From Peristeroidobacter soli (GTDB lineage Bacteria; Pseudomonadota; Gammaproteobacteria; Steroidobacterales; Steroidobacteraceae): DNA of 64,000 bases. How positions within the stretch are numbered: the first letter of the stretch is position 1; the number at the start of each line of letters is the position of its first letter. The notes beneath the pieces are model-generated. The model worked only from the letters and a program-made list of their open reading frames with translations. It was not told the origin of the DNA and did not search any database. The position numbers and the translations under genes were made by a program. The DNA lies in the NCBI RefSeq assembly GCF_004138485.1, contig NZ_RYEV01000008.1, positions 124,001-188,000 of the forward strand. The letters are read 5' to 3'. This document shows, piece by piece, positions 24,677 to 48,070 of the stretch.

Positions 24677-24711
24677 CCTACAGCGTTCGGGGCCTCAGGC
24701 CATCGGTGAGC

Positions 24712-30574: not shown

Positions 30575-32404
30575 TTGTCAGTCAGCGGTACGTCCAACGC
30601 GGCGATTACGCATGGCTTGCGGCAGGCTCAGACCCTGCTGCAACAGGGCCTGCATGCGCAAGCGGCCGATGTTTGCAGCCGGTTGCTGGCGCAGTGGCCG
30701 ACGCTGACCGAAGCTTTGCAGCTGCTGGCATTGGCTCGCAAAGCTGTCGGGGATGTCAGCGAAGCGGAACGTTTGTTACGCGCTTGTGTACAACTGCAGC
30801 CGCAGCGAGCCGATTTTCACGCCAACCTGGCCAACTTGTTACGTGCGAGCGGTCGTGTCGCCGATGCCGAGGCGAGCTATCGGCTGGCGTTGCAGGCGGA
30901 TGCTCGTTTCAAACCGGCACGCCTGGGATTGATTCGTACGCTGAACGCGGCCGGCGTTCATCCGCAAGCGCAGATCGAAGCGGCCGCTCTGGTTCACGAC
31001 GATCCGGCCGACGCCGAAGGTTGGGCCGAACTGGCCGCCGCGCTCAAAGGTCAGGGCAGATTCTCCGATGCGGAAGCCGCCTATCGAGCGGCGCTCGCGC
31101 GCCGTCCTTCGTTCGCGATCGCGCGTCACAACCTGGGCTCACTGCTGTCGCAGCTGGAGCGCGCCGACGAGGCGCTGCGTGAAATCGATCGAGCGGTCGA
31201 GGCTGGCCTGAAAGGTCACGCCGTGCATTTGAATCGCGCCATTGCTTTACAACAGCTGGGGCGCTTCGAAGCAGCCGAGCAGGAGTTCGAACACGCCGCG
31301 CAACTGGCGCCGGCGCACGTCGATACTCAAGCGCGGCTGGCGAAGCTTCGCTTCATGCGCGGTGACGCCGACTTCACTCGCGGTCTGCGCGCGGTGGTCG
31401 CGGGGAATTTGCGCAATTCTCAATTACATCTGTGCCAGGCGAGCTTGTTGCGCGATGCCGGCCGGCTGTCGGAAGCCACCGCGGCGTTTCAGGACGCAAT
31501 CGCTCACTGCGGCGAACAACCGGAGTTGTTGATGGGGCTGGCGCTCACCGCGATGGACGCCGGTATACCCGGGCAGGCGCTGGCGCCGGCGCAGGCCGCC
31601 GTTTGTGCTCGGCCCGATTACCTGCACGGATCCACTTGTTTGCAGTCGGTCCTGCTGTCGCTGGGGCGCGCGGACGAAGCGATGCCGCTGATTCAGCGGG
31701 CCCGGGCGCTCGCGCCATTTCATCAAGAACACATTGCCTGCGAGGCGACCGCGGCTCGCATGCTCGGGCTGCCCAGATATCAGGAACTCTACGACTACGA
31801 TCGTTTCGTGGTACCCAGGATGCTCGATCGGCCGGATGGCTTTGCTTCCATCGAAGCGTTCTGCGACGAGCTGATGGGTGTGTTGGCCGAACGGCAGCAA
31901 CTCGCCATGCATCCGCTGGATCAGAGTTTGCGTTTCGGAGCACAGACGCCGCGCAGTCTGCTGGCGGATCCGCATCCGTTGATTCGTGAGTTCCTGGAGC
32001 TGCTGTCGGCGCCGATCGCTGAATATCGCTCGCGATTACCGCAATCCGAGGATCACCCGCTGTTGTCTAGAAATAACGGCGAAGCGCGGCTGTCGGGATG
32101 TTGGTCGATCCGTCTGCATCGTGGAGGCTATCACCTGAATCACGTGCATCCGTCGGGCTGGCTCAGCTCGGCTTGTTACATTCATGCGCCGGCGGATGCT
32201 CGAGACACCGTCGCGCGCAGTGGCTGGATCAAATTCGGAGAACCGCGCTACCCTACGCCCGGAGTCGATGCGGAACGGATGCTTCAGCCCAGGGCGGGAA
32301 TGCTGGTATTGTTTCCTTCCTATATGTGGCACGGAACCATGCCTATCACCACGGACGAGCCTCGAGTCACCATCGGTGCCGACGTGCTGCCTGGCACGGC
32401 CTGA
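30575..32404 (+). CDS. TPR protein with C-terminal putative 2OG-Fe(II) oxygenase domain (TTG start)
   Basis: TPR repeats; WSIRLHRGGYHLNHVHPSGWLSSACYIHAP...GMLVLFPSYMWHGTMPITTDEPRVTIGADV. Confidence 0.85.
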   Translation: MSVSGTSNAAITHGLRQAQTLLQQGLHAQAADVCSRLLAQWPTLTEALQLLALARKAVGDVSEAERLLRACVQLQPQRADFHANLANLLRASGRVADAEASYRLALQADARFKPARLGLIRTLNAAGVHPQAQIEAAALVHDDPADAEGWAELAAALKGQGRFSDAEAAYRAALARRPSFAIARHNLGSLLSQLERADEALREIDRAVEAGLKGHAVHLNRAIALQQLGRFEAAEQEFEHAAQLAPAHVDTQARLAKLRFMRGDADFTRGLRAVVAGNLRNSQLHLCQASLLRDAGRLSEATAAFQDAIAHCGEQPELLMGLALTAMDAGIPGQALAPAQAAVCARPDYLHGSTCLQSVLLSLGRADEAMPLIQRARALAPFHQEHIACEATAARMLGLPRYQELYDYDRFVVPRMLDRPDGFASIEAFCDELMGVLAERQQLAMHPLDQSLRFGAQTPRSLLADPHPLIREFLELLSAPIAEYRSRLPQSEDHPLLSRNNGEARLSGCWSIRLHRGGYHLNHVHPSGWLSSACYIHAPADARDTVARSGWIKFGEPRYPTPGVDAERMLQPRAGMLVLFPSYMWHGTMPITTDEPRVTIGADVLPGTA

Positions 32405-32750
32405 ACACAGCAAACAAAAGCGGCCGGCGCCAGCCTTACGCGCTGTTGTGAACCAGCAACGTGTATACATTCCCCGAAGCGGTGCGCCCGCCGTGGTCAC
32501 AATGCGGTCGCCTGCGTAAATGCTGGCGTTTCCGGGAGATTTCTGCGTGTGCCCGCGTCGGAACGATCACGCACGGTTGTACTTCCTTTGCCGATTTTGC
32601 AGCTGTATGCTCGGAGCCACGCTTGGGTCGATAGTTGTGAATTATCCATCGCTGCGGCCCAGGAAGGGAGCGTAGCCGACACCCCGAAACTGCAACTGAC
32701 GGGTGTCGGTCAGGAGTCAATTAAAACCCTCTCGCAGGAGGAGCATTCTA

Positions 32751-35700
32751 ATGTCGACGAATATTTCGATTCGGCGCGCGGTGAGCTACGCGCTGTGGAC
32801 GAGCGTTGCGGCAGCGGCCGCGCACTCGTCACCGATCATGGCCGCGGAAAACCAGGACATGGTCGCCGAGGTTGTGGTTACCGGTTCACGCATCCAACGT
32901 CAGGACTACGTTGCCAACAGCCCTGTGATCACCAGCACGGCTGAGCAGATTGTCGAGAACGCGGACGTTACTCTCGATACTTATCTGAACACGCTGCCGC
33001 AGGTGAATCCGGCCGGCGGCACCACCTCCAACAACCCGGGTAACGGCGGTCAGTCGAACATCGACCTGCGCGGCCTGGGCGCCAACCGTAACATCGTGCT
33101 GTTTGACGGCCGTCGCGCCATGCCATCGGCGAGCGACATGACGGTCGACCTGAACACCATTCCGCAGGCCCTGATCGAAAGCATCGAAATCGTGACCGGC
33201 GGCGCCGGCGCGGTGTACGGCGCGGACGCGGTGGCGGGCGCGGTGAACATCAAGCTGCGGGAGAACTACGAAGGCCTGGACTTTCGTTATAACTTCTCCA
33301 ACAGCACCGAATACTGGGACGCCGAGGAATATCAGGTTTCCGGTCTCGGCGGCATGAACTTCGCGGACGGTCGCGGCAACTTCGTGATCGGCGCGGATTA
33401 CTCCAAGCGCGAAGGCATGATCAAGAGCCAGCGCGCGTTCGCGGCGCAGGCGACTTCGACCACTTCGTATCTGCCCGAGGGCCTGTACATTCCGGGCGCC
33501 AACGGGCCGGACCAGACGGCGATCGATGCGCTGTTCGGCCGGGCCGATTACGGCAGCAATGCGCCGGGATCGGTGCTCGGAAACCTGATTGGTTTCAACA
33601 CCGATCGCACGTTGTTCTCGCGCGGCGTGTTCAACAGCCCGCGTGACGTGGTGAATTTTCGCTATCCGAACGATCTGAACATCAACGCCAACCTGTTCCC
33701 CGACCTGTATTCGTACAACTTCGACTCGGTCAACATCCTGACCTTGCCGCTGGAGCGCAAGTCGGGCATGGGCAAGTTCAAGTTCGAGTTCGAGGGTGGG
33801 GTCGAAGTGTTCGCGTCGGCCGGCTACACGGAATATGACTCGACCACCGCGCTTGCTCCGACGCCGTTCCCGACGGTGGGCACCAAGGCGCCCGGCGAGG
33901 CATCCGCGATTCAGGCGACCTCGTCATTGGTACGGCCCGGCCGGACCGTCAGCAACAACCTGGTCATCCCACTGAACAATCAGACCATCCCGGATGATCT
34001 GCGCACGCTGCTGGCTCAGCGCACGGGTACCTTGAATACGACGACGGGTCTGATCGAGGGCGATCCCAATCTCATCGATTATCTGACCCCGGCCGCTCAG
34101 CCGATCATGATCCGCACGCGCACGCTCACCACGGGCCTGCGTCAGTCGGCGTTCAACAACGAAGTCCTGCAGTACACGGTCGGTGCGCGCGGTCCGCTGT
34201 TCGGCGACACCTGGAAGTGGGAAGCCTACGCGTCGCAAGGCAAGACCGAGATCACCGAAACCCAAACCGGCAACATCGATACGCAACGTGTGATCGATCT
34301 GGTCGCGATGAACGACAGCGGCGCGAGCGTGTGCGACGGCGGATTGAATTTCTTCGGTCGCAATCCCCTATCGGCGGAGTGCGCGGCCTACATCACGGTG
34401 CCTCCGACAGTGCTGTCGACCGAGTTCAAACAACGCATCGTGCAGGGCTTCGTGACCGGTGAAATCGCTCAGCTGCCCGCCGGCCCGATGTCGCTGGTGG
34501 TCGGTGCCGAGGGCCGCTGGTTCGATTATGACTTCGATCCGGGCAACAGCTCCGGTCCGGTGTCGGGCTTGAATGCCCAGAATCCGGCCAAGGGCAACAA
34601 CAACTTCCAGGATCTGTTCCTCGAGACCCTGATTCCGCTGGTGAACGGTGCGCCGGCGGCCAAGTCGCTGGAACTGAGCCTCGGTTATCGCTTCTCGAAG
34701 AGCGAATTCGAGGACGAGATCGCCGACCTGAAGAGCGACAGCCAGAACTCGAACGCCTACAAGGTCGAGTTGAGCTGGGTGCCGGTCGACAGCCTGCGCG
34801 TGCGCACGTCGTATCAGCGCGCGGTGCGCGCGCCGAACTTCGACGAGTTGTTCGACGGCGGCGGCTCGGCGCCGCAGTACTTCGATCCGTGCTCGGTTGG
34901 CACGGCGAAGCGCACCGGCGCCGATGCGGCCGATATGCGCAGGCTCTGCCAACAGACGGGCGTAGGCGCTTCCGTCATCGATGGTTACGTGCAGACCCCG
35001 GGTAATCAGATCTCGATCACGACCGCTGGCAACATCGATCTGGAGCCGGAGACCGCGGACACCGTCACGATCGGCTTGGTGTTCACTTCTCCTTGGGAAG
35101 GTGCACTGGCCGGCCTGCAGGGTTCGTTGGACTACTACAGTATCGATATCTCCGATCCCATCATCGATCCGTCGCCGAACATCTACGTGGCGGCTTGCTA
35201 CAACTACTACGGCGACAACCCGACCTACAGTGCGACCAATCCGTTCTGCGGTGGCATCGTGCGCGGCGGTGGCGACGTTCTGGGTGTGGATTCCGTGGAC
35301 ACCGACGACGGCGTGTTCCCCGGCATCAACGGTGGTTCGATCAAGACCGATGGTCTGGACCTGCAGTTGAACTACAGCGTCGGCCTGCCAAAGGGCGAGC
35401 TGGGCTTCAACCTGGCGTACAACTATCTGCTGTCGTTCAAGCAGTCGGATCGTCCGGGTCTGCCGGCGCTCGACTACGCGGGCACGGTGTCGTACTTCGG
35501 CGCGGGTCTGGGCACGAGCTTCCCCGAGCAGCGTGCGAATCTCACGGGTCAGTACGCGATCGGTCCGTTCGCCGTCCAGGCCCGTTTGCGCTGGATCGGC
35601 GACATGGAGAATCGCGCGGCCGTGCAGTTCCCCGGTGAGACGTTCAAGGGCGTGCCCTCGATCTCCTACCTGGATCTGTCGGCCAGCTGGAAGTTCATGG

Positions 35701-35846
35701 ACAAGTCGATGTTCCGTATCGGCATGAACAACGTCATGGACAAGCAGCCGCCGGCATATGCGCCGAACGTGCAGTCCGGTACCGACCCGTCGACTTACGA
35801 CGTGATCGGCCGGCGCATCTTCGGTCAGATCTCGATCGGCTTCTAA
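32751..35846 (+). CDS. TonB-dependent receptor
   Basis: Signal peptide; EVVVTGSRIQRQDYVANSPV; DLRGLGANRNIVLFDGRR; GGAGAVYGADAVAGAVNI; C-terminal ..GQISIGF. Confidence 0.93.
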   Translation: MSTNISIRRAVSYALWTSVAAAAAHSSPIMAAENQDMVAEVVVTGSRIQRQDYVANSPVITSTAEQIVENADVTLDTYLNTLPQVNPAGGTTSNNPGNGGQSNIDLRGLGANRNIVLFDGRRAMPSASDMTVDLNTIPQALIESIEIVTGGAGAVYGADAVAGAVNIKLRENYEGLDFRYNFSNSTEYWDAEEYQVSGLGGMNFADGRGNFVIGADYSKREGMIKSQRAFAAQATSTTSYLPEGLYIPGANGPDQTAIDALFGRADYGSNAPGSVLGNLIGFNTDRTLFSRGVFNSPRDVVNFRYPNDLNINANLFPDLYSYNFDSVNILTLPLERKSGMGKFKFEFEGGVEVFASAGYTEYDSTTALAPTPFPTVGTKAPGEASAIQATSSLVRPGRTVSNNLVIPLNNQTIPDDLRTLLAQRTGTLNTTTGLIEGDPNLIDYLTPAAQPIMIRTRTLTTGLRQSAFNNEVLQYTVGARGPLFGDTWKWEAYASQGKTEITETQTGNIDTQRVIDLVAMNDSGASVCDGGLNFFGRNPLSAECAAYITVPPTVLSTEFKQRIVQGFVTGEIAQLPAGPMSLVVGAEGRWFDYDFDPGNSSGPVSGLNAQNPAKGNNNFQDLFLETLIPLVNGAPAAKSLELSLGYRFSKSEFEDEIADLKSDSQNSNAYKVELSWVPVDSLRVRTSYQRAVRAPNFDELFDGGGSAPQYFDPCSVGTAKRTGADAADMRRLCQQTGVGASVIDGYVQTPGNQISITTAGNIDLEPETADTVTIGLVFTSPWEGALAGLQGSLDYYSIDISDPIIDPSPNIYVAACYNYYGDNPTYSATNPFCGGIVRGGGDVLGVDSVDTDDGVFPGINGGSIKTDGLDLQLNYSVGLPKGELGFNLAYNYLLSFKQSDRPGLPALDYAGTVSYFGAGLGTSFPEQRANLTGQYAIGPFAVQARLRWIGDMENRAAVQFPGETFKGVPSISYLDLSASWKFMDKSMFRIGMNNVMDKQPPAYAPNVQSGTDPSTYDVIGRRIFGQISIGF

Positions 35847-35875
35847 GCAGGATTGGATCGACCTCGATCCGGAAG

Positions 35876-35903
35876 GGCGGCTCGGCGACGAGCCGCCTTT
35901 TTC
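35876..35903 (+). terminator. Rho-independent terminator
   Basis: GGCGGCTCG-gcga-CGAGCCGCC-TTTTTC. Confidence 0.9.
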
Positions 35904-36018
35904 TTGGCGCGGATTTTCTTGCGGCCAAACGTGCGCGGGGTGCGATCAACGGGCCCAAGGGCCCATGGTGCTCGCGATATCCAGGCCTAATACTCGGCTC
36001 ACGATGCCGAGGTGGGTT

Positions 36019-36294
36019 ATGCCGCGATCCATTACGACCTGTGCGCTCATCGTCCCGTTGGCAATTGCGCTCGCCGCTTGCGCGAACGCTCCGGAAGGAA
36101 TGCGGGACGCGCGGGTTCACTCGACGCCATCCTGGAACAAATACTACGTCGCGGGCTCGCGCATTCCGCGCACGCTGGACGCGCAAGGTCAGCCGCTGAC
36201 CGGCTCTCACATCGTCACCATCACCGATGAAGAGCTGACCAATTCCTCCGGCGTGTTGCTCGGAGACAAGCTCAACGGCGGCTATTCGCGTTGA
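36019..36294 (+). CDS. Small lipoprotein with TonB-receptor-plug-like motif
   Basis: Lipobox IALAAC; YYVAGSRIPRTLDAQGQPLTGSHIVTITDEELTNSSGVLLGDKLNGG. Confidence 0.6.
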   Translation: MPRSITTCALIVPLAIALAACANAPEGMRDARVHSTPSWNKYYVAGSRIPRTLDAQGQPLTGSHIVTITDEELTNSSGVLLGDKLNGGYSR

Positions 36295-36326
36295 TGAAAT
36301 TTTTTTTCGTTGATCACTAACTTTAG

Positions 36327-37061
36327 TTAGTGATCGCCGGCCCGTAACCAGCCAGTGATGCTGTAACGAGCGTGCGTCGCTGCCGGAGCCACGTAGCTCA
36401 CGCAGTGGTTCTGCGGCACGCGGAACAGATTCAACACGTTGAACTTGGGCACATAGCCTTCCGCGACGTGGCCGTCGCGGTCGATGAATTGCAGAACGCC
36501 ACCCCAGTCGGCGCGCCACTCCGGAGTAAAACCAAACACATAGGCGGCCAGACGCTGCTTGCCGGCGACGTTGTCGTCATGTTCGGTGAGAAAGTGCCCC
36601 GGCAGATATCGGGTCGCCTGGCTGTCGGCGAAGGCGATGGCGGGCAGTCCGGTGATCGCGCGCGCGAATTGCAGAAATTCCTCCGAATTCAGGAACTCAT
36701 GCATGGCCATGAGCGGGTGCGCGCGCTCGCCCGACCGATACAGATCGTACAGAGGAAAATTCTCGAACACGTATTGGAAACCGCGCCGGGACTGCTCCAG
36801 CATTTTTTTCGTCATCGTCTCTCGCTGCTCCGGCGGCATCAGCATCAGCTGTTGATGCGCGATGTCGACGTGGCGCTGTCCTACGTTGAGCGACAGCTGC
36901 CAGGGCGTGCGCGTGTCGAGTTGCGTGAAGAGAGTGTCCGCACTGGAGGCCGTGAGTACGTCTGGTATGTGCACGCGGCCTTGTGTTCTGAAGATATCGG
37001 CGATCACCCGTCGATCCAGCCGCGGGTTCAATTGGATCTGCAATTGGATCTGCTCGTGCAT
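36327..37061 (-). CDS. 2OG-Fe(II) oxygenase family protein
   Basis: TRYLPGHFLTEHDDNVAGKQRLAAYVFGFTPEWRADWGGVLQFID...NVLNLFRVPQNHCVSYV. Confidence 0.8.
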   Translation of the reverse strand: MHEQIQLQIQLNPRLDRRVIADIFRTQGRVHIPDVLTASSADTLFTQLDTRTPWQLSLNVGQRHVDIAHQQLMLMPPEQRETMTKKMLEQSRRGFQYVFENFPLYDLYRSGERAHPLMAMHEFLNSEEFLQFARAITGLPAIAFADSQATRYLPGHFLTEHDDNVAGKQRLAAYVFGFTPEWRADWGGVLQFIDRDGHVAEGYVPKFNVLNLFRVPQNHCVSYVAPAATHARYSITGWLRAGDH

Positions 37062-37395
37062 GTCTTGTCGTTGTACCGGTAAGTATTACAGGCGGCGGTA
37101 TCGAATGACGCTTCTGTACTTGCTAAATGACCGTTGTCTCTTTACAACGCGCGCCGATTGGACACCACTTTGTGCTCGACATCCCTTACTTAAGTAAGTG
37201 ATTTACAACCGACAGCTCGCGGGAACCGCTGAGAAATCCGCTTGTTGCCGCGAAACCAACAGTTGTATGCTCAGCACACTTCGGTCCAGCGTTGTCGGCG
37301 AGCAAACCACCGACTGTTGCGCATCGATCACGAGATGCCTCATTCACACAGCTGAATGCCCCTCACAAATTTAACCTCTTGCAGGAGGAGTGGAA

Positions 37396-40329
37396 ATGAA
37401 ATCGACCAGTAACTCCCTTCGGTACGCAGTTCACTGCGTGCTGTTGGCGAGCGCAGCCACCGCGCTGCCTGCCTTGCCGGCGTTGGCACAGGAAACCGAC
37501 TCGGCGGCCCGGCCCATCGAAGAAGTGGTGATCACCGGTTCGCGCATTCGTCGCGTCGACGAAGAAACCGCCAGCCCCGTGTTCGTCATGGATCAGAACA
37601 CCATCGCCAACACCGGCGTGCAGACGATGGGCGATCTGATGATGCGCGTGCCGGCAATTTCCGGCGCGGCCACCAATCCGCAAGTCAACAACGGCGGCGG
37701 TACCGGTGAATCCAACGTCGAACTGCGCGGTCTCGGTGCGCAGCGCACGCTGGTGCTGTTGAACGGTCGGCGCATCAACGTACTGGGCGCGAACGGCACC
37801 ACGTCGGCGGTCGACATCAACATGATCCCGATCAACATGATCGAGCGGGTCGAAGTGCTGAAGGAAGGTGCTGGCGCCGTGTACGGCTCCGACGCCATCG
37901 CGGGCGTGGTGAACTTCATCACCAAGAAGAATTTCGACGGCGCCGAAGTGAACGTCGAATACGGCCGCACGGGTGAGAATGACGGCGAGCACGAGTCCGC
38001 CAGCCTCACGCTCGGCAGCACGACCGACAAGATGAGCGTCATGTTCGGCGTGAATTACAACAAGCAGAAGGCGGTGTCCGCGGCCGATCGTCAGTTCTCT
38101 GCCAACGCGCTGTACCTCTATGGCGGCGGTGTGAGCGTCGGCGGTTCGAGTCGCACGCCGAATGGTCGCATCGGTCTGCTGGACTGGATGGACGATCCGG
38201 CCCATCCGGATGATCCGGACGCTCCTCAGATTCCGGTGCCGGGCACTCTGGCCGAGCTGTTCCCGGGTTGCTCGGGCACTCAGTCCCTGACGCGCAACGA
38301 CGGTGCGGCCGGCAACGCGGTCAACCCCGCCAACTATCACTGTTTCGCGGGCGCCGACGCATTCAACTATCAGCCGTACAACTTGCTGATCACGCCGACC
38401 GAGCGCACCAGCTTCTTCACGATGCTGAACTACAAGATCACCGAAAACACCGAGGCCTACGGCGAAGTGGTGTACAACCGCACCCGCTCCGGCTTCCAGC
38501 TCGCGGCACTGCCGTTCGACGCCAACGCCGACGACATCGTGATCTCCGCCAACAACGCCTACAACCCGTTCGGCTATGCCTTTGGCGGCGTCGATGGCTT
38601 GAATCCGAACTTCCTGACCCGCCTGCAGGCACTCGGCAATCGTCGCAGCGACGTCGATACCGATTCCATCATCGGTAACGTCGGCGTGCGCGGCAAGTTC
38701 GGCCAGAGCAGCTGGGAATGGGATCTGGGCGCGCAGCTCGGACGTATGAACCAGGACCAGAACATCACCGGTTATCTGCTCAAGCCGCAGCTGCAGAACG
38801 CGGTGGGCCCGACGTTCGTGGACACCGACGGCACGCTCCGATGCGGCAGCGATGCGGCGAATCTGATCGCCGGGTGTACGCCGATCAACTTGTTCAACCT
38901 GTCCGATCCGGCACAGATCCAGGCATTGCGCGACATTTCCACCAACTATCGTAGCGACTACAACTACGACAGCTCGGGCTTCGCGCTCAACACCAATGGC
39001 GAGTTGTTCGATATCAGCGGCGGCACGGTGCTGATGGCGGTGGGTGCGGAATATCGCACGCAAAGAGGTGTGTTCGAGACGGACGTGCTGACGCGCGGCG
39101 AAGCGCCGCTGTATCTGTCCTGCTTGCTCGCGCAGGAAACCTGTACCGGCAACTCCTCGGCCGAATACAACGTGCGCGAAATCTACACCGAGTTCTTCGT
39201 GCCGCTGCTGAAGGATCTGCCGGGCGTGCAGGCGTTGAACGTCACCGTCGGCGTGCGCTACTCGGATTACTCGATCGACACGATCGGCGACGACACCAAC
39301 GCGCAGTTCAAGGTCGAATACCGTCCGATCTCCGACCTGTTGGTCCGCGGTTCGTATGCCCAGGTGTTCCGTGCGCCGACCATCCTCGATTTGTCGAAGG
39401 CGCCGTCGCAGGATTCGCCGACGTTCAACGATCCTTGCACGCAGCTCACGCCGGCGGCGCTCGCGGCCAATCCGGGCCTGGCGCGTGCCTGCGTGGGCGT
39501 GCCGACCAATGGCAATTTCAAGCAGCCGAACAGCCAGATCACCGGTCTGATCCTCGGCAATCCGAACCTGAAGCCGGAAACCGGCGACGTGACCACGTTC
39601 GGCGTGGTGTACGACCCGAACTTCGTCGAAGGGCTGTCGGTGTCGCTGGATTACTGGAAGTACAAGATCGAGGATCTGATCACGCCGCTCGATCCGAACT
39701 TCGCGGTCGAGCAGTGCGTCGACACCGGCACCTACTGCGATCTGCTGTATCGCTATCCGTCGAGCAGCCCGAACGCGGGTGAGTTCCAGGTCTTCCAGGA
39801 ACCCATCGTCAACCTCGGCGTGCTGGAAACCGACGGTTTCGATCTGGGCGTGAAGTACTCGCTGCGCGATACGTCGGCCGGCTCGTTCAACATCACGTTG
39901 GACCTGACCCGCATCAACAGCTACGAGAACACCCCGTCGCCGGGTGCCGCTCCGGTGGAGATCGCGGGTACGTTCGATCGTCAGTTCGGCAACTATGCCA
40001 AGTGGCGCGGTCTGATGGGCGTGGGCTGGGCGATGGGTGGCTTCGACGGTCTGCTGTCGTTTCGTTATATCCACAGCCTGAAGATCATCGGCCCGGACGG
40101 CGGCCTGTCGGATGAGCCGCCGCTGGAGATCGGCTCGACGACCTATATCGATGCGACCTTGGGTTACACGTTCCCGACCGACACCAAGGTCCAGGTCGGC
40201 GGCATCAACCTGACCGACAAGCAGCCGCCGCTGCTGTATCAGAACAACGTCACGAACGCGAACACCGATGTGTCCACCTACGACCTGCTGGGTCGTCGCT
40301 GGTACGTCAGCGTGACGCAGAAATTCTGA
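37396..40329 (+). CDS. TonB-dependent receptor
   Basis: EEVVITGSRIRRVDEETASPV; ELRGLGAQRTLVLLNGRR; EGAGAVYGSDAIAGVVNF; C-terminal ..YVSVTQKF. Confidence 0.93.
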   Translation: MKSTSNSLRYAVHCVLLASAATALPALPALAQETDSAARPIEEVVITGSRIRRVDEETASPVFVMDQNTIANTGVQTMGDLMMRVPAISGAATNPQVNNGGGTGESNVELRGLGAQRTLVLLNGRRINVLGANGTTSAVDINMIPINMIERVEVLKEGAGAVYGSDAIAGVVNFITKKNFDGAEVNVEYGRTGENDGEHESASLTLGSTTDKMSVMFGVNYNKQKAVSAADRQFSANALYLYGGGVSVGGSSRTPNGRIGLLDWMDDPAHPDDPDAPQIPVPGTLAELFPGCSGTQSLTRNDGAAGNAVNPANYHCFAGADAFNYQPYNLLITPTERTSFFTMLNYKITENTEAYGEVVYNRTRSGFQLAALPFDANADDIVISANNAYNPFGYAFGGVDGLNPNFLTRLQALGNRRSDVDTDSIIGNVGVRGKFGQSSWEWDLGAQLGRMNQDQNITGYLLKPQLQNAVGPTFVDTDGTLRCGSDAANLIAGCTPINLFNLSDPAQIQALRDISTNYRSDYNYDSSGFALNTNGELFDISGGTVLMAVGAEYRTQRGVFETDVLTRGEAPLYLSCLLAQETCTGNSSAEYNVREIYTEFFVPLLKDLPGVQALNVTVGVRYSDYSIDTIGDDTNAQFKVEYRPISDLLVRGSYAQVFRAPTILDLSKAPSQDSPTFNDPCTQLTPAALAANPGLARACVGVPTNGNFKQPNSQITGLILGNPNLKPETGDVTTFGVVYDPNFVEGLSVSLDYWKYKIEDLITPLDPNFAVEQCVDTGTYCDLLYRYPSSSPNAGEFQVFQEPIVNLGVLETDGFDLGVKYSLRDTSAGSFNITLDLTRINSYENTPSPGAAPVEIAGTFDRQFGNYAKWRGLMGVGWAMGGFDGLLSFRYIHSLKIIGPDGGLSDEPPLEIGSTTYIDATLGYTFPTDTKVQVGGINLTDKQPPLLYQNNVTNANTDVSTYDLLGRRWYVSVTQKF

Positions 40330-40378
40330 TCGAGCGGGCCTGCGCGGGCTTTCCTGCGCCGGTCCGATGCAGCTTCAA

Positions 40379-40415
40379 GGGCCGTGAGGTTTTGCCTCGC
40401 GGCCCTTTTCTGTTT
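40379..40415 (+). terminator. Rho-independent terminator
   Basis: GGGCCGTGAGG-ttttg-CCTCGCGGCCC-TTTTCTGTTT. Confidence 0.9.
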
Positions 40416-40426
40416 AGTTTCCGGAC

Positions 40427-42280
40427 ATGACTGCCAGTTTCCGTTCATCGTTGCCCCCGGAGTTGCAGGCGTCGCTGCGCGAGGCCGTGACTGCGTTCAA
40501 TGCCGGTCGGTTCGAGTCTGCGGCACGAAGCTGTGAGCGGGTGCTGGCCCGGGCGCCCGGAAATCTGCGAGCGTTGGGCGTTTACGGCGCGGTTCTACAC
40601 GCCCAAGAGCGCTACACCGAGGCCGAGCGCGTGTTCGGTGAGTTGGTGGATGCCGATCCCAACACCGCCATGCACTGGATGAATCTCGCGACCGCCCGGC
40701 GCGGGGCGGGCAAATTCGAGGACGCCCTGCGTGCCTACATGCGCGCATCCGAGCTTGGCTGCGCCACCGCCGATTTCTATTTCAACGTCGGTCTCACCCA
40801 TCTGGATCGACGCGACTACGAATCCGCTCGCGCGGTATTGAAAAAGGCGCTGGAGCTCGCGCCCGCGGATGCCTTGATCCGGTCTGAATACGTTCACGCC
40901 TGTTACGAGACCTTGCAGACGGACGAAGCTCTCGAAGCGCTGCAGGGCTGGACGGAATTCTCGGGGCTGACCCCCGAGCAACTGGCCGATGTCGGTCAAC
41001 GAATGATGAACCTGGGTGAGACCGAGCGCGCCGAGCATGTCCTGTCGCGGCTTGGCAGCCACGAGCTGGATGCACGCGCGATGTTGACACTCGCGCAGAT
41101 CATGGAGCGGACCAATCGATTGCCGGAAGCGCAGCGGCTGGTAGAGCAGCTCTCCAGCGGGGCGCGCGCCGCGTCGCTCGGCATGGATCTGCTCGTCACG
41201 CGAGCGCAGCTGGCGCAACGGGCCGGCGATCACGAGCGCGCCCGCGAATGGTTTCAGGAGGCGCTCTCGCAAGTCGTGCACGAGCACGACAGACATTTCG
41301 TTTTGTTTCCGCTGGCGAAGTCGCTGGACGCCTTGAAGCGTTACGACGAGGCGTTCGCTGCCATGGCCGAGGCGCACACATCGCAAGTCGCGCATTTGAA
41401 GCTCACCGCGCCGATGGCGGTCGCTCGCGGCACGCCGACATGGGATATCACCCGGTGGGGCTGCGATCCCGCCGATATCGCACAATGGGACTATGGCGAC
41501 GTGCCGGCGCTGGAGGAGAGCCCGGTGTTCGTAGTGGCCTTCCCACGGTCGGGCACGACATTGCTGGAGCAAACGCTCGACGCGCATCCGCAGTTGAAAT
41601 CCATGGATGAACAGCCCATCGTCCAGGCGGCGCTCGATGACGTCATTGCCGAGGGCGTGCACTATCCGGAGGAGATGGGGAAACTCACTGCGCAGCAAGT
41701 GGCGGCCATCCGCGCGCGTTATTTCGAACGCGCGGCGGCGAAGGTGAAGCGGACGCCCGGCCAGCGCATCGTCGACAAGAATCCGCTCAACATGCTCCGG
41801 CTGCCGGTGATAAAGCGTTTGTTTCCAAACGCGCCCATCATTCTCGCGGTCCGTCATCCGTGCGACGTGGTGCTGAGTTGCTTCATGCAGCACTTCCGCG
41901 CGCCGCATTTCGTGATGTTGTGCTCCGATCTGCAAACGCTGGCCGATGGCTACCGCCGTTCGTTCGATTTCTGGTACGAGCAGTCGGCCCTGCTGTCGCC
42001 GAACGTGCTGGAAGTCCGTTACGAAAGCTTCGTCGCCGATTTTGAACGCGGCGTGCGGGAGATCGCCGACTTCCTGCGTCTGCCCTGGCACGACGGCATG
42101 CTGGCGCCAGCCGAACACGCGCGCGCCAAGGGATACATCAGCACGCCGAGCTATTCGCAGGTCGTGCAACCGGTGAATCAAAAGGCGGTGGGACGCTGGC
42201 GCGCCTACGAGCGGCACCTCGCGCCCATCATCCCTCAGCTGCAGACTTATTTACGCCGGTGGGATTACTCGGATCGATGA
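40427..42280 (+). CDS. TPR-sulfotransferase
   Basis: TPR N-terminus; PAPS-binding VVAFPRSGTTLLEQTLDAHP; RIVDKNPLNMLRLP; RHPCDVVLSCFMQ. Confidence 0.92.
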   Translation: MTASFRSSLPPELQASLREAVTAFNAGRFESAARSCERVLARAPGNLRALGVYGAVLHAQERYTEAERVFGELVDADPNTAMHWMNLATARRGAGKFEDALRAYMRASELGCATADFYFNVGLTHLDRRDYESARAVLKKALELAPADALIRSEYVHACYETLQTDEALEALQGWTEFSGLTPEQLADVGQRMMNLGETERAEHVLSRLGSHELDARAMLTLAQIMERTNRLPEAQRLVEQLSSGARAASLGMDLLVTRAQLAQRAGDHERAREWFQEALSQVVHEHDRHFVLFPLAKSLDALKRYDEAFAAMAEAHTSQVAHLKLTAPMAVARGTPTWDITRWGCDPADIAQWDYGDVPALEESPVFVVAFPRSGTTLLEQTLDAHPQLKSMDEQPIVQAALDDVIAEGVHYPEEMGKLTAQQVAAIRARYFERAAAKVKRTPGQRIVDKNPLNMLRLPVIKRLFPNAPIILAVRHPCDVVLSCFMQHFRAPHFVMLCSDLQTLADGYRRSFDFWYEQSALLSPNVLEVRYESFVADFERGVREIADFLRLPWHDGMLAPAEHARAKGYISTPSYSQVVQPVNQKAVGRWRAYERHLAPIIPQLQTYLRRWDYSDR

Positions 42281-42842
42281 ACAGCAGGTACGTGGAAATG
42301 ATGTACTTGTCGCCCGAGATCGGCGGGCAGCCTTCGTGCTGGTACATCCAGTACGGAGGAAACATCAGCAAGCGACCGGCGCGCGCCGGAATGGTCACGT
42401 CCAGCTGCGGGAAGCGCGTCTCGCCGCCTTGCTCGACATCGTTCAGATACCACAGCAGCACCAGGTAGCGATTCGCCACATGGTTGATGGCATCGAAATG
42501 CAGCTGAAACTGTTCCTGTTGCCCGGCGCGGTAGCGCTTCAGGGTCAGGTTGGCGAACAGCGGCGAGTTGGGAATGGGCAGGGCCAGCTCGATGTCGCGG
42601 TTGTAGCGCTCCAGCGCCCGGTCGATCTGCCGGCGGAACATGCCCTGGAAGGCCTCGTCCGCCAGGCGGCTGACGTTCAGCTCGGTCCAGGCCGAGTCCT
42701 CCAATCCTCTACGCACGCCACGGCCGTTGCGCAGCTGGAAGCGTTCCAGCCCGGCGAACGAACCGATCATCTGCTGGCACAGCTGCGGGTCCAGGTCCTG
42801 ATCGTAGGTGCGAATGTAGCGGCGCAGGTCTGCGTGGCTCAT
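42228..42842 (-). CDS. 2OG-Fe(II) oxygenase (prolyl-4-hydroxylase-like)
   Basis: LTLKRYRAGQQEQFQLHFDAIN...YLVLLWYLNDVEQGGETRFPQLDVTIPARAGRLLMFPPYWMYQHEG. Confidence 0.85.
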   Translation of the reverse strand: MSHADLRRYIRTYDQDLDPQLCQQMIGSFAGLERFQLRNGRGVRRGLEDSAWTELNVSRLADEAFQGMFRRQIDRALERYNRDIELALPIPNSPLFANLTLKRYRAGQQEQFQLHFDAINHVANRYLVLLWYLNDVEQGGETRFPQLDVTIPARAGRLLMFPPYWMYQHEGCPPISGDKYIISTYLLFIDPSNPTGVNKSAAEG

Positions 42843-42864
42843 AGGCAGCTATAGTAGCGCGGAA

Positions 42865-44136
42865 ATGAATTCACCAGACATCCAGACCCTGATGCAGCAG
42901 GGCCGGCTCGATGAGGCGGAGCGGCTGGCGCGCCAGTCGTTGCAGCACCGGCCGGGTGACGTGGAATCGCTCAATACGCTGGGTTTGATCGCCCTGCGTC
43001 GCGGGCAGTTCGAACGCGCGCAGCAACTGCTGGAATCGGCCATCGAGTCCAACCCGGGCAATGCGTCGAGCCGGCATTATCTCGGCCGCGTGCACGACGC
43101 GTCGGGCAACACGGAGGGGGCGGTCGCTGCTCACGGTGCCGCGCTCAGGCTCGCGCCCGGCATGTTCATCATCCGCTTGCACTACGCAATCGCGCTGGAG
43201 CGTGCCGGCCAGAACGAGCAGGCGGCGATTCAATATTTTCGTGCGAGCAACGACGCGCAGGCGCAAGGGCGCTGGCTGAGCGCGGAGACCACGGCGCCAG
43301 CGTTGCGGCCGATGGTGGAGCACGCCGTGCGCATGGTCAGAGCGACTCGCAAGGAAACCTTTGCGAAGCTGCTCGAACCGCTGCGTCAGAAGTTCGGTGC
43401 CAGCTCGCTCGATCGCATCGAGCGCGGCCTGCGCATCTACCTTCAGGAAGAAGCGCCGGTTCATCCAGACCCGCGCCAGAAGCCGACGTTCTTCTACGTG
43501 CCCGACGTGCCGCCCGCGCCGTATCTGGATCGATCCCTGTTTCCCTGGATCGAACGGCTCGAAGCACAGACCGATGCCATCCGTCAGGAGCTGTTACAGC
43601 TGCTGCGCAGTGACGCCGGTCGCGAGCGGGTGTTCAACACCGAGGCTATCGAGAAACAAAACCTGCGAGGCTTGCAGACGCCGCCGAGCTGGAACGGTTA
43701 TTACTTTTATCGGCATGGCGAACGCCGCGCCGACAACTGTCTGGCATGTCCCGTGACGGCGAGTACGCTCGAATTCCTGCCCTTGTCTCATGTGCGCGAG
43801 CACGGTCCGGAAGTTCTGTTCTCGGTGTTCACGGCGGGCACGCATTTATTGCCTCATCGCGGCGTGACCAACTCACGGCTGGTCGGGCATCTGCCGTTAC
43901 TCGTGCCGCCGGACTGCGCATTGAATGTCGGCGGCGAAGTGCACGAGTGGCGCGAAGGGCGCGCAGTCATCTTCGATGATACGTACGAGCATGAAGCGTG
44001 GAATCGCAGTGACCGCACGCGTGTGGTTCTGATCTTCGATATCTGGAATCCGCATCTCACCGAAGCCGAGCGTGCCGCCGTCGAGTTGCTCGTGCCGGCC
44101 ATGGGTGATTTCCGGAAAGCGGCGGAGACGGCGTAA
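42865..44136 (+). CDS. TPR + aspartyl/asparaginyl beta-hydroxylase domain protein
   Basis: TPR; VFTAGTHLLPHRGVTNSRLVGHLPLLVP...WREGRAVIFDDTYEHEAWNRSDRTRVVLIFDIWNP. Confidence 0.9.
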   Translation: MNSPDIQTLMQQGRLDEAERLARQSLQHRPGDVESLNTLGLIALRRGQFERAQQLLESAIESNPGNASSRHYLGRVHDASGNTEGAVAAHGAALRLAPGMFIIRLHYAIALERAGQNEQAAIQYFRASNDAQAQGRWLSAETTAPALRPMVEHAVRMVRATRKETFAKLLEPLRQKFGASSLDRIERGLRIYLQEEAPVHPDPRQKPTFFYVPDVPPAPYLDRSLFPWIERLEAQTDAIRQELLQLLRSDAGRERVFNTEAIEKQNLRGLQTPPSWNGYYFYRHGERRADNCLACPVTASTLEFLPLSHVREHGPEVLFSVFTAGTHLLPHRGVTNSRLVGHLPLLVPPDCALNVGGEVHEWREGRAVIFDDTYEHEAWNRSDRTRVVLIFDIWNPHLTEAERAAVELLVPAMGDFRKAAETA

Positions 44137-44138
44137 TC

Positions 44139-45959
44139 ATGCGCTTACCCCGGCCATTTTATCGCTTACCGCTGCGCTTCGATGTGGAGCGGTTGCGCGC
44201 TGAAGCGGCGGCATTGCCTGCCGGCGCCTGGGCTCGTCATCCCAATGATATCAAGGGCAACAGCGCGGCCCGGTTGATCAGCGTCGATGGCGGCGAGAAC
44301 GACGAAGTCAACGGCCGCATGCAGGCGACGCCGCATCTCCAGCAGTCGCCTTACATCCGGCAGATTCTGGCGAGCTTCGGTGTGGTGTGGAGCCGCTCGC
44401 GTCTGTTGCGTCTCGCGCCGGGCGCGATCGTTCCCGAGCATGCCGATATCAACTATCACTGGTTCACGCGCGTCCGTTTACACATTCCCATCGTGACGCG
44501 GCCGGAAGTTCGTTTCTATTGCGCGGACCAGTCCGTGCACATGGCGGCGGGTGAAGCTTGGGTGTTCGACAACTGGCGTTCGCATCGAGTCGAAAACTTC
44601 ACACCGGACGAACGCATTCACCTGGTCGCGGATACGTCGGGTAGCGCCAATTTCTGGCAGCTGGTCGCGCAAAGTGACAACCCGAATGCGCAAGTGCGCG
44701 AGGTTCCCTACATCGCGGATCGCCAGCTGTCGCCGCTCATGGAGCGCTCCAAGCTTGCGGCCGTCATGACGCCGGGCGAAATGGATTTCTTGATTCTCGA
44801 CCTGCGCTCGGAGCTGGAGGCTCGAGAGAACCTATCAGACTCGCGCGCGCGTCTGATTCGTTATCACGGATTGCTGGAAGGGTTCTGCAAAGACTGGCGG
44901 CAGCTGTACTCATTGTATGGCGAGGAGCCCGACGGTTGGCCGGAGTTCGTGCGTCTGCGCGACAGCATACGCAATGCGTCTCGAGAGCTGTCGGAGGGCT
45001 TGATGATGCGCACGAATCGAGTGCCGGCTCATCAGGTGCTGGAAGGTCGTGTATTGCGCGCGATGTTGTCGCTGCCGCAGCCGGCGCGCCGGCGCATGCA
45101 GAAGATCGACGCGCCGATTTTCATCGTCTCGGCACCGCGCTCCGGAAGCACGCTGCTGTTCGAAACATTGGCGGCGAGCTCGCAGCTGTGCACGGTTGGA
45201 GGTGAAGCGCATTGGTTGGTGGAAGGAATCGAGGCGCTACGTCCCGGCGCGCCGGGCATTGACTCCAATCGTTTGACGGCTGAGCATGTCAGCGACGTCA
45301 TCGCGGCCGACATCCGCGAGCAGATTCTGTCGCGGCTGCAGGACCACGCAGGTCGGCCGCTGCGCGAGCCCGGCGAACGACGTTTCCTGGAAAAGACGCC
45401 GAAGAACTCGCTACGAATTCCGTTTTTCAATCATATATTTCCCGATGCGCGCTTCGTGTTCCTGTGGCGCGATCCGCGCGAGAACATCAGCAGCATCATG
45501 GAGGCCTGGCGATCTGGCAACTGGCGTACTTATCCCAAACTGGAGGGGTTCGATGGACCGTGGTCGATGCTGTTGCCGCCAGGCTGGCGCGCCATGAACG
45601 GCCGACCGCTGGCTGAAATCGCCGCCTGGCAATGGGAACGAACCAACGCCCGAATCCTCGATGACCTGCAAGCGTTGAGCAGTGAACGCTGGGCAGCGCT
45701 GGAATATGATGAACTGCTGCGGAATCCCGTCGGTGCTATCGGTAAGCTATGCGACTTCCTGCGGATGCCGGTAGATTCAGCACTGGCGCAGCGTTTGTCC
45801 GCGCCGCAGCCGCCGTCCCGTTACACACTGACCCCGCCAGCAGCGGACAAATGGCGCGCGAATGAGGCGCAGATTGCTCCGGTGTTACCGTCCGTTCAGG
45901 CCACGTGGGATAGATTGCGAGCGTTGAGTGGGGCTCAAGGAGTTGGCGATGTTTCGTAA
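44139..45959 (+). CDS. Fusion: AspH-type hydroxylase domain + sulfotransferase domain
   Basis: LAPGAIVPEHADINYHWFTRVRLHIPIVTRPEV...GEAWVFDNWRSHRVEN; then FIVSAPRSGSTLLFETLAAS, RRFLEKTPKNSLRIPFF, FLWRDPRENISSIMEAW. Confidence 0.87.
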   Translation: MRLPRPFYRLPLRFDVERLRAEAAALPAGAWARHPNDIKGNSAARLISVDGGENDEVNGRMQATPHLQQSPYIRQILASFGVVWSRSRLLRLAPGAIVPEHADINYHWFTRVRLHIPIVTRPEVRFYCADQSVHMAAGEAWVFDNWRSHRVENFTPDERIHLVADTSGSANFWQLVAQSDNPNAQVREVPYIADRQLSPLMERSKLAAVMTPGEMDFLILDLRSELEARENLSDSRARLIRYHGLLEGFCKDWRQLYSLYGEEPDGWPEFVRLRDSIRNASRELSEGLMMRTNRVPAHQVLEGRVLRAMLSLPQPARRRMQKIDAPIFIVSAPRSGSTLLFETLAASSQLCTVGGEAHWLVEGIEALRPGAPGIDSNRLTAEHVSDVIAADIREQILSRLQDHAGRPLREPGERRFLEKTPKNSLRIPFFNHIFPDARFVFLWRDPRENISSIMEAWRSGNWRTYPKLEGFDGPWSMLLPPGWRAMNGRPLAEIAAWQWERTNARILDDLQALSSERWAALEYDELLRNPVGAIGKLCDFLRMPVDSALAQRLSAPQPPSRYTLTPPAADKWRANEAQIAPVLPSVQATWDRLRALSGAQGVGDVS

Positions 45960-46377
45960 GTTGTTGTTGATTGCGGCTGTCGCTGGCGCGACGAGCCAGG
46001 TCTTCGCACAGCAGGTCGCTCCGGCCGAGCCCGCTGCGCCCGCCGCGGCACCTCAGGCGGCAACGCCTGCGCCACCGCCGGCCGACGCCAAAGTGATCAA
46101 GGAACCTGCTGCCGCTGCGGCGCCGGCCGATGAAAAAGCAAACCCGCTGACGGAAGGACAGATTGACGCCGATAAGATCATGGCCATGCAAAAGGCCGGC
46201 TACACGATCAAGAACGAGAACGGCCAGACTCTGCTATGCCGTCGGGACAATCAGACCGGCTCGCGACTGCGTCACAAGACATCCTGTATGACTGCGCGGG
46301 AATGGGAACAGTTGCAGGAAGAGAACAAACTCCAGCTCAAGTCGCTGGAGCGTCGTCCGCGCATGAGTCCGCAGTAG
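45949..46377 (+). CDS. Small secreted Ala/Pro-rich protein, C-x15-C domain
   Basis: Signal peptide; LLCRRDNQTGSRLRHKTSCMTAREWEQ. Confidence 0.65.
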   Translation: MFRKLLLIAAVAGATSQVFAQQVAPAEPAAPAAAPQAATPAPPPADAKVIKEPAAAAAPADEKANPLTEGQIDADKIMAMQKAGYTIKNENGQTLLCRRDNQTGSRLRHKTSCMTAREWEQLQEENKLQLKSLERRPRMSPQ

Positions 46378-46388
46378 AGATGCCATGG

Positions 46389-47081
46389 CTACTGGAACGA
46401 GTAGCCGTGACGTTCGATGACCAGTTGGTCGCGCTCGGCGACCAGCTGCGCCAGCCCGGCATCGTAGAACTGACGATGAGGCGCATGTTCCGAAGTGTTC
46501 AGCGCCGGCGCGGTGCTCATGTAATCGCGCAGCTCCGATGTCACAGGCTCGCCCGCCGATTCCAGTAGCGGTGGCACTTCAGTCCGCAACTGCTCCATGC
46601 GGGCGAGCTTTACGGCCGCGATGTCCGGCCCATACAAATATCGATAAAGAAACGAATAGAAGCCGAGGCCACTGCCCCGAATCGGCGCCAGCGCGGAGTT
46701 CGGCAGGTTCAGCCCTTGATTGAGATAGGTCGCCGGCAACGCCGCGAGCGCCCGCTCCAGCAACGCCGGGTCGCGATCCAGGTTCAGCATGTTTCGAATC
46801 GTTGCCGCGAAGTCCAGCGTGCCGCCCTGGCTCAGCGTTTGAAACAAGGCGTTGGGTTGCGGCCGCGAGCGCTGAAAGCTGTACCACGAAACATAGTAGC
46901 TCCAGGGATTTCGCACCAGGCCCAGCAACGGCAGCGAGGAGTACTGCGCGGGCAGCATCGAGCGGGGCAGGTGATAGCCGATCTGCCTGGCGCCCGCGAT
47001 GTGATGGATCAGACCGGCGTTGACGAAAGTGCCGCCGGACTTATGTAAGTGCAGGAAGACGAAGCGAGGAGTGACGATCAT
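46389..47081 (-). CDS. Sulfotransferase-like protein
   Basis: RFVFLHLHKSGGTFVNAGLIHH (5'-PSB-like loop); LLGLVRNPWSYYVSWYSFQ (3'-PB-like). Confidence 0.75.
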   Translation of the reverse strand: MIVTPRFVFLHLHKSGGTFVNAGLIHHIAGARQIGYHLPRSMLPAQYSSLPLLGLVRNPWSYYVSWYSFQRSRPQPNALFQTLSQGGTLDFAATIRNMLNLDRDPALLERALAALPATYLNQGLNLPNSALAPIRGSGLGFYSFLYRYLYGPDIAAVKLARMEQLRTEVPPLLESAGEPVTSELRDYMSTAPALNTSEHAPHRQFYDAGLAQLVAERDQLVIERHGYSFQ

Positions 47082-47722
47082 CCCGCGGCATGCGTGGCGA
47101 AATGCCGATCGACGGTTTCGTCGTACCGGCCGAGGTTCCGGTCGCCGGCCGCCAGGAGTTGCAGCAGGTCGGGCGTGGGCAGGAAGTCACAGATCATGTG
47201 AGTGCGCGATCGTTCCGGGTCGGCGTTCCACACCGCGTGCGGCGAGCTGTTGTTCAGTACCCAGATCTCGCCGGGCCGCATCAGATAAGTGAGCTCACCG
47301 GCGATCATATGCACGTGCTCGTGTGACTCGATCGGAAAATGCAGCCGCAACGTCTTGGCGAAATACGGTGCGCGATCGATGTGCGGATCGATGGAGACAC
47401 CGCCGGGCAGACGTGCGAGCAAACATCGCTGCGGTGGCGCCGGTATCAGCTTTTCAATGATCTCGCGGGCATACGGCATCAGCGCCAGCGGCTCACGATC
47501 CTCGATCGGCAACGCTCCCTGCGCCGGCGCGTAACCCCGAAGAAACAAGGCCTCGGCGTTGCGATGAACGCCGACACGGCCGCCGGTGGATCCCCATAGA
47601 GCCGTCGGCAATGCCGCGACCTCATCCGCCAGTCGCCGCGCATCGATTCCCACCGGCAGGCGCAGGCAGCCGCCCACCAGCGTGGTCTTGTCGATGACGG
47701 GATGGCCGGGGAGGTCCAGCAT
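47078..47722 (-). CDS. Aspartyl/asparaginyl beta-hydroxylase-like protein
   Basis: LARLPGGVSIDPHIDRAPYFAKTLRLHFPIESHEHVHMIAGELTYLMRPGEIWVLNNSSPHAVWN; 4-bp overlap with the downstream gene. Confidence 0.85.
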   Translation of the reverse strand: MLDLPGHPVIDKTTLVGGCLRLPVGIDARRLADEVAALPTALWGSTGGRVGVHRNAEALFLRGYAPAQGALPIEDREPLALMPYAREIIEKLIPAPPQRCLLARLPGGVSIDPHIDRAPYFAKTLRLHFPIESHEHVHMIAGELTYLMRPGEIWVLNNSSPHAVWNADPERSRTHMICDFLPTPDLLQLLAAGDRNLGRYDETVDRHFATHAAG

Positions 47723-47728
47723 TGCCGT

Positions 47729-48070
47729 TCAATTGCCCCTGGGCGGCAGGGCTTCGCTGGAGTTGAGGGCTTCCTTGAAGCCGTCCTTCGCATTGTTGGT
47801 GCGCGCGGTCCATTCGTCCTGAGTCAGGCAGATCTTTTTGTTCTTCAGTCGCGTGTTGGTCACGGACTCCTGCTTGCAGATGATCTTCTTGCCGTCCGCG
47901 GTATTGATGGGCTCGCCGCTTTCGACGGAATAGTTGATCAGCCGCTGGGCCTTCTGATCGTCCGTTTCCTTGGCCGCCACCGCGGGCGCGGCGGTGGGCG
48001 CGACCGGCTTCGGCGAGGCGCAGCCGAGCAATGCGACCAGGCAAACCGATAAACAAATGAGTGAGCGCAT
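47729..48070 (-). CDS. Small lipoprotein, C-x15-C domain (paralog of 45949-46377)
   Basis: VALLGC lipobox; IICKQESVTNTRLKNKKICLTQDEWTA. Confidence 0.65.
   Translation of the reverse strand: MRSLICLSVCLVALLGCASPKPVAPTAAPAVAAKETDDQKAQRLINYSVESGEPINTADGKKIICKQESVTNTRLKNKKICLTQDEWTARTNNAKDGFKEALNSSEALPPRGN

Follow-up and report, generated by a model that had tools for sequence, protein, structure and literature searches.

Two kinds of described locus are the nearest precedents for the genes analysed here, the receptor–oxygenase pair of the CciT–CciO type and the methanobactin operons. In CciT–CciO, PiuA–PiuC and Fiu–YbiX, as in our region, a TonB-dependent receptor (TBDR) lies conservedly near a cytoplasmic 2OG oxygenase (PMC12004943, PMC12004947). 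The precise function of CciO is stated to be unknown, and processing of an imported substrate has been proposed for it (PMC12004943). Unlike our region, these systems have a single oxygenase, no sulfotransferase and no TPR enzymes. Methanobactin operons also bring a sulfotransferase (MbnS) and a TBDR (MbnT) together, their product being ribosomal (PMC3621798); they differ in that the sulfotransferase is a PF00685 protein without TPR and in being defined by MbnA, MbnB, MbnC and a MATE exporter, none of which was seen by Pfam in the conserved block described below. In the open-access literature, subscription papers lying mostly outside its scope, no TBDR–sulfotransferase or TBDR–sulfotransferase–hydroxylase loci were found described, methanobactin operons excepted.

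At the level of single enzymes, human AspH has the same two-domain layout, TPR plus oxygenase, as the protein encoded at 42865 in our region, which carries TPR and PF05118 and has AspH as its nearest solved relative. The latter protein differs in being cytoplasmic and bacterial, with no EGF-like substrate seen, and the fused and free AspH domains of the region are of another, HxD..H type. TPST1/2 are eukaryotic Golgi enzymes without TPR, unlike the TPR-sulfotransferase found here; TPST is nonetheless its nearest solved relative, is among the fold matches of a second, fused sulfotransferase, and PAPS-binding motifs are present. The original prediction had pointed instead to RaxST as a TPR-type example; from the profile and fold matches, TPST1/2 are the better relatives. 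In RaxST–RaxX of Xanthomonas, as in our region, a bacterial sulfotransferase is accompanied by a small secreted protein. That system is defined by a peptidase-ABC exporter and an adaptor beside the sulfotransferase, neither of which was found by Pfam in our block; to our knowledge, RaxST has no TPR domain and RaxST–RaxX includes neither hydroxylases nor a pairing with a TBDR.

Domain content of the region

The window is a stretch of 64,000 nucleotides from Peristeroidobacter soli, whose genome assembly comprises 9.37 Mb in 17 contigs. The features between positions 30575 and 48070 are as follows.

30575-32404, + strand: TPR protein with a 2OG-FeII_Oxy_5 domain (TPR-OX5), 609 aa; PF13759 4.4e-21
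32703-35846, + strand: TonB-dependent receptor (TBDR1), 1047 aa; PF00593 1.1e-30, PF07715 2.4e-18
35965-36294, + strand: small lipoprotein, 109 aa, containing a GSRIPR stretch that resembles a receptor plug; no Pfam match
36327-37061, - strand: 2OG oxygenase, 244 aa; PF13661 1.1e-21, PF13640
37390-40329, + strand: TonB-dependent receptor (TBDR2), 979 aa; PF07715 6.7e-23, PF00593 9.7e-30
40427-42280, + strand: TPR-sulfotransferase (TPR-ST), 617 aa; PF13469 1.7e-36, conserved motifs
42228-42842, - strand: P4H-like 2OG oxygenase, 204 aa; PF13640 9.3e-12
42865-44136, + strand: TPR protein with an aspartyl/asparaginyl beta-hydroxylase domain (TPR-AspH), 423 aa; PF05118 4.5e-45
44139-45959, + strand: in-frame AspH–sulfotransferase fusion, 606 aa; PF05118 3e-14, PF13469 9.2e-27
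45949-46377, + strand: small exported protein A, with signal peptide, Ala/Pro linker and Cys-GSR-Cys domain
46389-47081, - strand: divergent sulfotransferase (ST2), 230 aa; PF00685 E=0.012, below cut-off
47078-47722, - strand: AspH-type hydroxylase (AspH2), 214 aa; PF05118 4.2e-13
47729-48070, - strand: small lipoprotein B, 113 aa, starting at 48070, with a lipobox from the sequence; same family as A

The inventory first drawn up for this region, of six 2OG- or AspH-type hydroxylase domains, three sulfotransferase domains, two TBDRs and three small exported proteins, is upheld by Pfam and the further comparisons given here, both TBDRs having a plug and a barrel domain. Two of the sulfotransferase domains (40427 and 44139) are found directly by Pfam, whereas the one at 46389 is recognised through its relatives: ST2 aligns with them, and proteins of the related set at L035 and L060 match PF03567 at 3.5e-13 and 5e-15, which identifies it as a divergent sulfotransferase. 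None of the three small ORFs (35965, 45949 and 47729-48070) has a match in Pfam; a signal peptide or lipobox can be seen by eye in each. A scan of the window for Fur boxes gave no match to the consensus searched, which may differ from the Fur box of the host. Directly upstream of 30575 lies a UvrA-like ORF of 1933 aa (24706-30507, + strand), about two UvrA lengths fused in one frame.

The TPR-ST profile matches protein-tyrosine sulfotransferases across the whole sulfotransferase domain, and TPR-AspH matches human AspH at 2.9e-27. The latter does not reach the NCBIfam cut-offs for OlsC (111 bits against 450) or LpxO (76 against 500). The P4H-like oxygenase conserves H115xD117..H169 and its profile matches prolyl 4-hydroxylases, at best with 3.9e-11; AspH2 has an invariant H114xD116..H162 and R173, and matches cis-L-proline-4-hydroxylase at 1.4e-6. 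In the fusion protein H101, D103, H149, R334, E418 and R444 are invariant across 15 sequences. Its structural model has a mean pLDDT of 88 and matches cis-P4H, the CurM sulfotransferase and TPST1/2 in the PDB, with heparan 3-O-sulfotransferases among the lower fold matches; profile and fold searches agree that its hydroxylase domain is closest to cis-L-proline-4-hydroxylase. In other lineages (L037 and L062) the counterparts of the fusion are two adjoining genes. The HxD..H residues of the fusion, AspH2 and the P4H-like enzyme, and the PAPS-site motifs of both large sulfotransferases, are conserved in alignments and not degraded. A TBDR and a 2OG oxygenase come together in the region, for instance as TBDR1 with 36327 and, within the conserved block, as TBDR2 with 42228. 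Neither of these two oxygenases matched any NCBIfam model, those for PiuC/YbiX (PKHD-type) proteins included, their matches being to PF13661/PF13640 only.

A conserved block of seven genes

Co-occurrence of these domains in other genomes had been set beforehand as the test on which the system could fail, and the outcome was strongly positive. Genomes of the order and a number of named genomes were searched with the fusion protein and the surroundings of each match annotated; domains of neighbouring proteins were assigned with profiles made from the window's own proteins and spot-checked with Pfam. About 12 genomes preserve seven genes, here between 37390 and 47722, in the same order and with the same orientations: TBDR and TPR-ST on one strand, the P4H-like oxygenase on the other, TPR-AspH and the fusion again on the first, and ST2 and AspH on the opposite strand. 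The carriers are Steroidobacter, Peristeroidobacter, other Steroidobacteraceae and further families of the same order (loci L031/L051, L032/L052, L033, L046, L047, L048, L049, L050, L053, L056 and L057), and in genome G097 the block is split across two contigs (L030 and L211). Partial copies are mostly truncated by contig ends. Among named genomes, the proteins closest to the fusion come from Steroidobacter agaridevorans (L053, 86% identity) and Peristeroidobacter agariperforans (L046, 84%). The TBDR opens the block in L046, L048, L049, L051, L052, L053, L056 and L033, and lies at the opposite end of the cluster in L057. In the block, Pfam detected no NRPS, PKS, exporter, leader peptidase, glycosyltransferase or acyltransferase domains.

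The conserved unit is smaller than the 17.5 kb originally taken as a single system, an extent that we rejected, since the genes from 30575 to 37061 are a variable addition that lies outside the block and does not travel with it. Proteins like TPR-OX5 are present in other TBDR–sulfotransferase islands (L043, L077, L081, L083, L182 and L207), and no counterpart of the 36327 oxygenase was seen beside the block at other loci. The lipoprotein at 35965 was likewise rejected as a core part because its clear relatives are restricted to the Steroidobacter group (L046 and L053); by eye, its GSRIPR...TITDEEL stretch is similar to the beginning of the plug domain in TBDRs.

Two further arrangements were observed around the block. 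In G091 two extra TPR-AspH genes and a further TBDR, oriented away from the block, precede it (L033:845-8367), so that islands of this kind seem to expand by accretion. In two block loci AspH2 has as its neighbour a methyltransferase (L049:13249-14451 and L057:13249-14439) with an additional N-terminal region that looks PqqD-like by eye.

Pairing of receptors with TPR-sulfotransferases

The association of a TBDR with a TPR-ST extends well beyond the block. We took 20 TPR-ST loci, one per genome, from the best matches of an order-wide sulfotransferase list, choosing them because their contigs could accommodate a control, irrespective of their neighbours; the controls were windows 60 kb away on the same contigs. 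A TBDR lies within 6 kb at 18 of the 20 loci, compared with three of the 20 control windows (Fisher p = 3.4e-6), and one of the two loci that lack it (L096) stops at a contig end. Five of the 20 loci are from one genus; when four of these are dropped the count is 14 of 16. In 15 of the 18 loci the TBDR is the gene immediately upstream on the same strand, mostly with a gap of 0–100 bp. In a phylum-wide sample a TBDR adjoins seven of 20 sulfotransferase loci, and many PF13469 genes across the phylum are not linked to a TBDR. On the sulfotransferase tree the presence of a TBDR requires 17 changes, as against 32 with shuffled labels (none of 500 shuffles as low), and the label is clustered, in separate clades. 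The window's own sulfotransferase belongs to a different clade from the principal one of the simple pairs.

Hydroxylases keep similar company. At least 30 of 107 PF05118 matches are within 8 kb of a listed sulfotransferase, a lower bound since the list comprises best matches, against about 0.7 expected; the expectation treats the genomes as independent and each as 3.2 Mb long, which makes the ratio a rough one. In this genome five of the seven PF05118 hydroxylases are within ~2 kb of a sulfotransferase. The other neighbours of the simple TBDR–sulfotransferase pairs vary, which leaves the receptor as the constant partner, and the block is an elaboration of this wider rule of TBDR plus TPR-ST.

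Among the varying neighbours, simple pairs in one genus and its relatives (L096-L105) adjoin genes for BCCT-type transporters, and some of them also MttB-like genes, all identified by eye; this setting may hint at the nutrient of the receptor. An unassigned gene of ~300 aa recurs in simple TBDR/TPR-ST/AspH loci (L067, L068, L072, L073, L075-L077, L084 and L086-L088), and the two ORFs checked, one of them possibly an antisense frame, had no Pfam match. No conserved small peptide stood out in the simple pairs.

Small exported proteins

Family alignments place proteins A and B in one family with a Cys-GSR-Cys-x-Thr domain, and these two, both in the present region, are the only strong members in the genome. 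The model of protein A, of low to moderate confidence, is a two-strand hairpin with a short helix. Members are found in TBDR/ST/AspH/OX5 islands of other genera (L201, L202, L203, L207, L081, L043 and L030), and 11 of 78 order-wide matches have an AspH gene no more than 8 kb away, where ~0.4 would be expected on the same rough basis as above. Elsewhere in the broader family most matches lie away from AspH genes, and in several full block loci no gene of the family was seen; A and B are therefore frequent companions of the block and not a fixed part of it. The recurrence of the A/B family in such islands lends some support to the idea that the small exported proteins are substrates or ligands. 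The third small protein, at 35965, is of another, narrow kind, with clear kin in the Steroidobacter group only.

Possible substrates and function

Our tentative reading, which we consider quite possible though short of probable, is that the block encodes a cytoplasmic hydroxylation–sulfation module dedicated to its TBDR and perhaps also to small exported proteins. PAPS and 2OG are cytoplasmic, and the enzymes, judged by eye, lack signal peptides, so that any modification would precede export. Ahead of Sec export, the TPR-bearing enzymes would engage the receptor while it is still unfolded, and perhaps the small Cys proteins too. The 2OG hydroxylases would hydroxylate side chains, for instance those of Pro and Asp/Asn, and the sulfotransferases would transfer sulfate from PAPS to side-chain hydroxyls; in the AspH–sulfotransferase fusion, sulfate would go onto the newly made hydroxyl itself. 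Once modified, the receptor or its small partner would serve in ligand capture at the cell surface. At the level of sequence, the TPR domains suggest polypeptide substrates, and the fusion points to a single site that is first hydroxylated and then sulfated. What the comparisons establish is the gene content, the conservation of the block, the linkage of sulfotransferases with TBDRs and with AspH-type hydroxylases, the intactness of the catalytic motifs and the kinship with enzymes that modify proteins; we infer that proteins are the substrates, with the receptor as the main one, as well as the order of the steps and the purpose of the modification.

The receptors paired with sulfotransferases revealed no target site in common. 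A sulfotyrosine-type site was rejected, acidic Tyr sites not being enriched in them, as was a C-terminal TDxSTYDxxGR motif, a similar motif being present in unpaired receptors (L148 and L149) and absent from most paired ones. Paired receptors are richer in Cys and Asn, an excess that is given no weight because the paired and unpaired sets come from different genomes.

The original proposal of a protein-modification cassette is partly supported, in that for three of the enzymes the closest solved relative modifies residues in proteins; it fits less well with the N-terminal domain of the fusion, which is nearest to a hydroxylase of free proline and so leaves room for a small-molecule substrate. 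The enzymes might tailor an amino acid, a siderophore-like compound or another metabolite, which the TBDR would either recapture after export or take up for processing in the cytoplasm. To the kinship of the fusion domain and AspH2 with cis-L-proline-4-hydroxylase can be added the match of the fused sulfotransferase to the polyketide sulfotransferase CurM, the position of simple TBDR–sulfotransferase pairs beside catabolic genes (for BCCT transporters and MttB-like and MTHFR-like proteins, all named by eye) and the substrate metabolism proposed for CciO/PiuC (PMC12004943). Yet the adjoining metabolic genes change between loci while the TBDR stays, the block has no scaffold-building enzyme or exporter, and the TPR domains and the TPST and AspH kinships favour polypeptides; we regard tailoring of a metabolite as rather unlikely. 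Enzymes of lipid or surface-polysaccharide modification, or unrelated enzymes accreted around a receptor, are the least probable of the explanations considered. PF05118 includes LpxO and OlsC, both of whose NCBIfam models TPR-AspH matches below cut-off, and the heparan enzymes among the lower fold matches would suit a polysaccharide, but the block is without a glycosyltransferase or acyltransferase. The many PF13469 genes of the phylum that have no TBDR link would be expected of accretion; the tight pairing relative to controls and the conservation of the block speak against a loose one.

The product might also be a secreted peptide, resembling a ribosomal natural product or signal, with the small Cys proteins hydroxylated and sulfated and the TBDR acting as their receptor or re-uptake route. 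That the genome's only two strong family members are both here, the family's presence in islands of other genera and its excess near AspH genes all point this way, as does the union of precursor, sulfotransferase and TBDR in methanobactin operons (PMC3621798). The mostly AspH-distant broader family, the full block loci in which no such gene was seen, the failure of any recurring small peptide to stand out in simple pairs and the lack of a leader peptidase in the block weigh against it, and we think a peptide product unlikely. A more far-reaching form of the receptor-modification reading, about which we are more doubtful, is that dedicated, co-encoded enzymes, among them a single-chain hydroxylase–sulfotransferase, hydroxylate and then O-sulfate outer-membrane receptors or small secreted partners, and that this may constitute an undescribed class of receptor modification across many Pseudomonadota.

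Few gene families in these bacteria are larger than that of the TBDRs, some of which travel with oxygenases. The pairing of TBDR with TPR-ST is far tighter than in controls and reaches beyond the order, and the island supplies defined partners for its study, an in-frame hydroxylase–sulfotransferase fusion and small candidate substrates. If the receptors are modified, this would alter the understanding of nutrient and metal capture in these bacteria.
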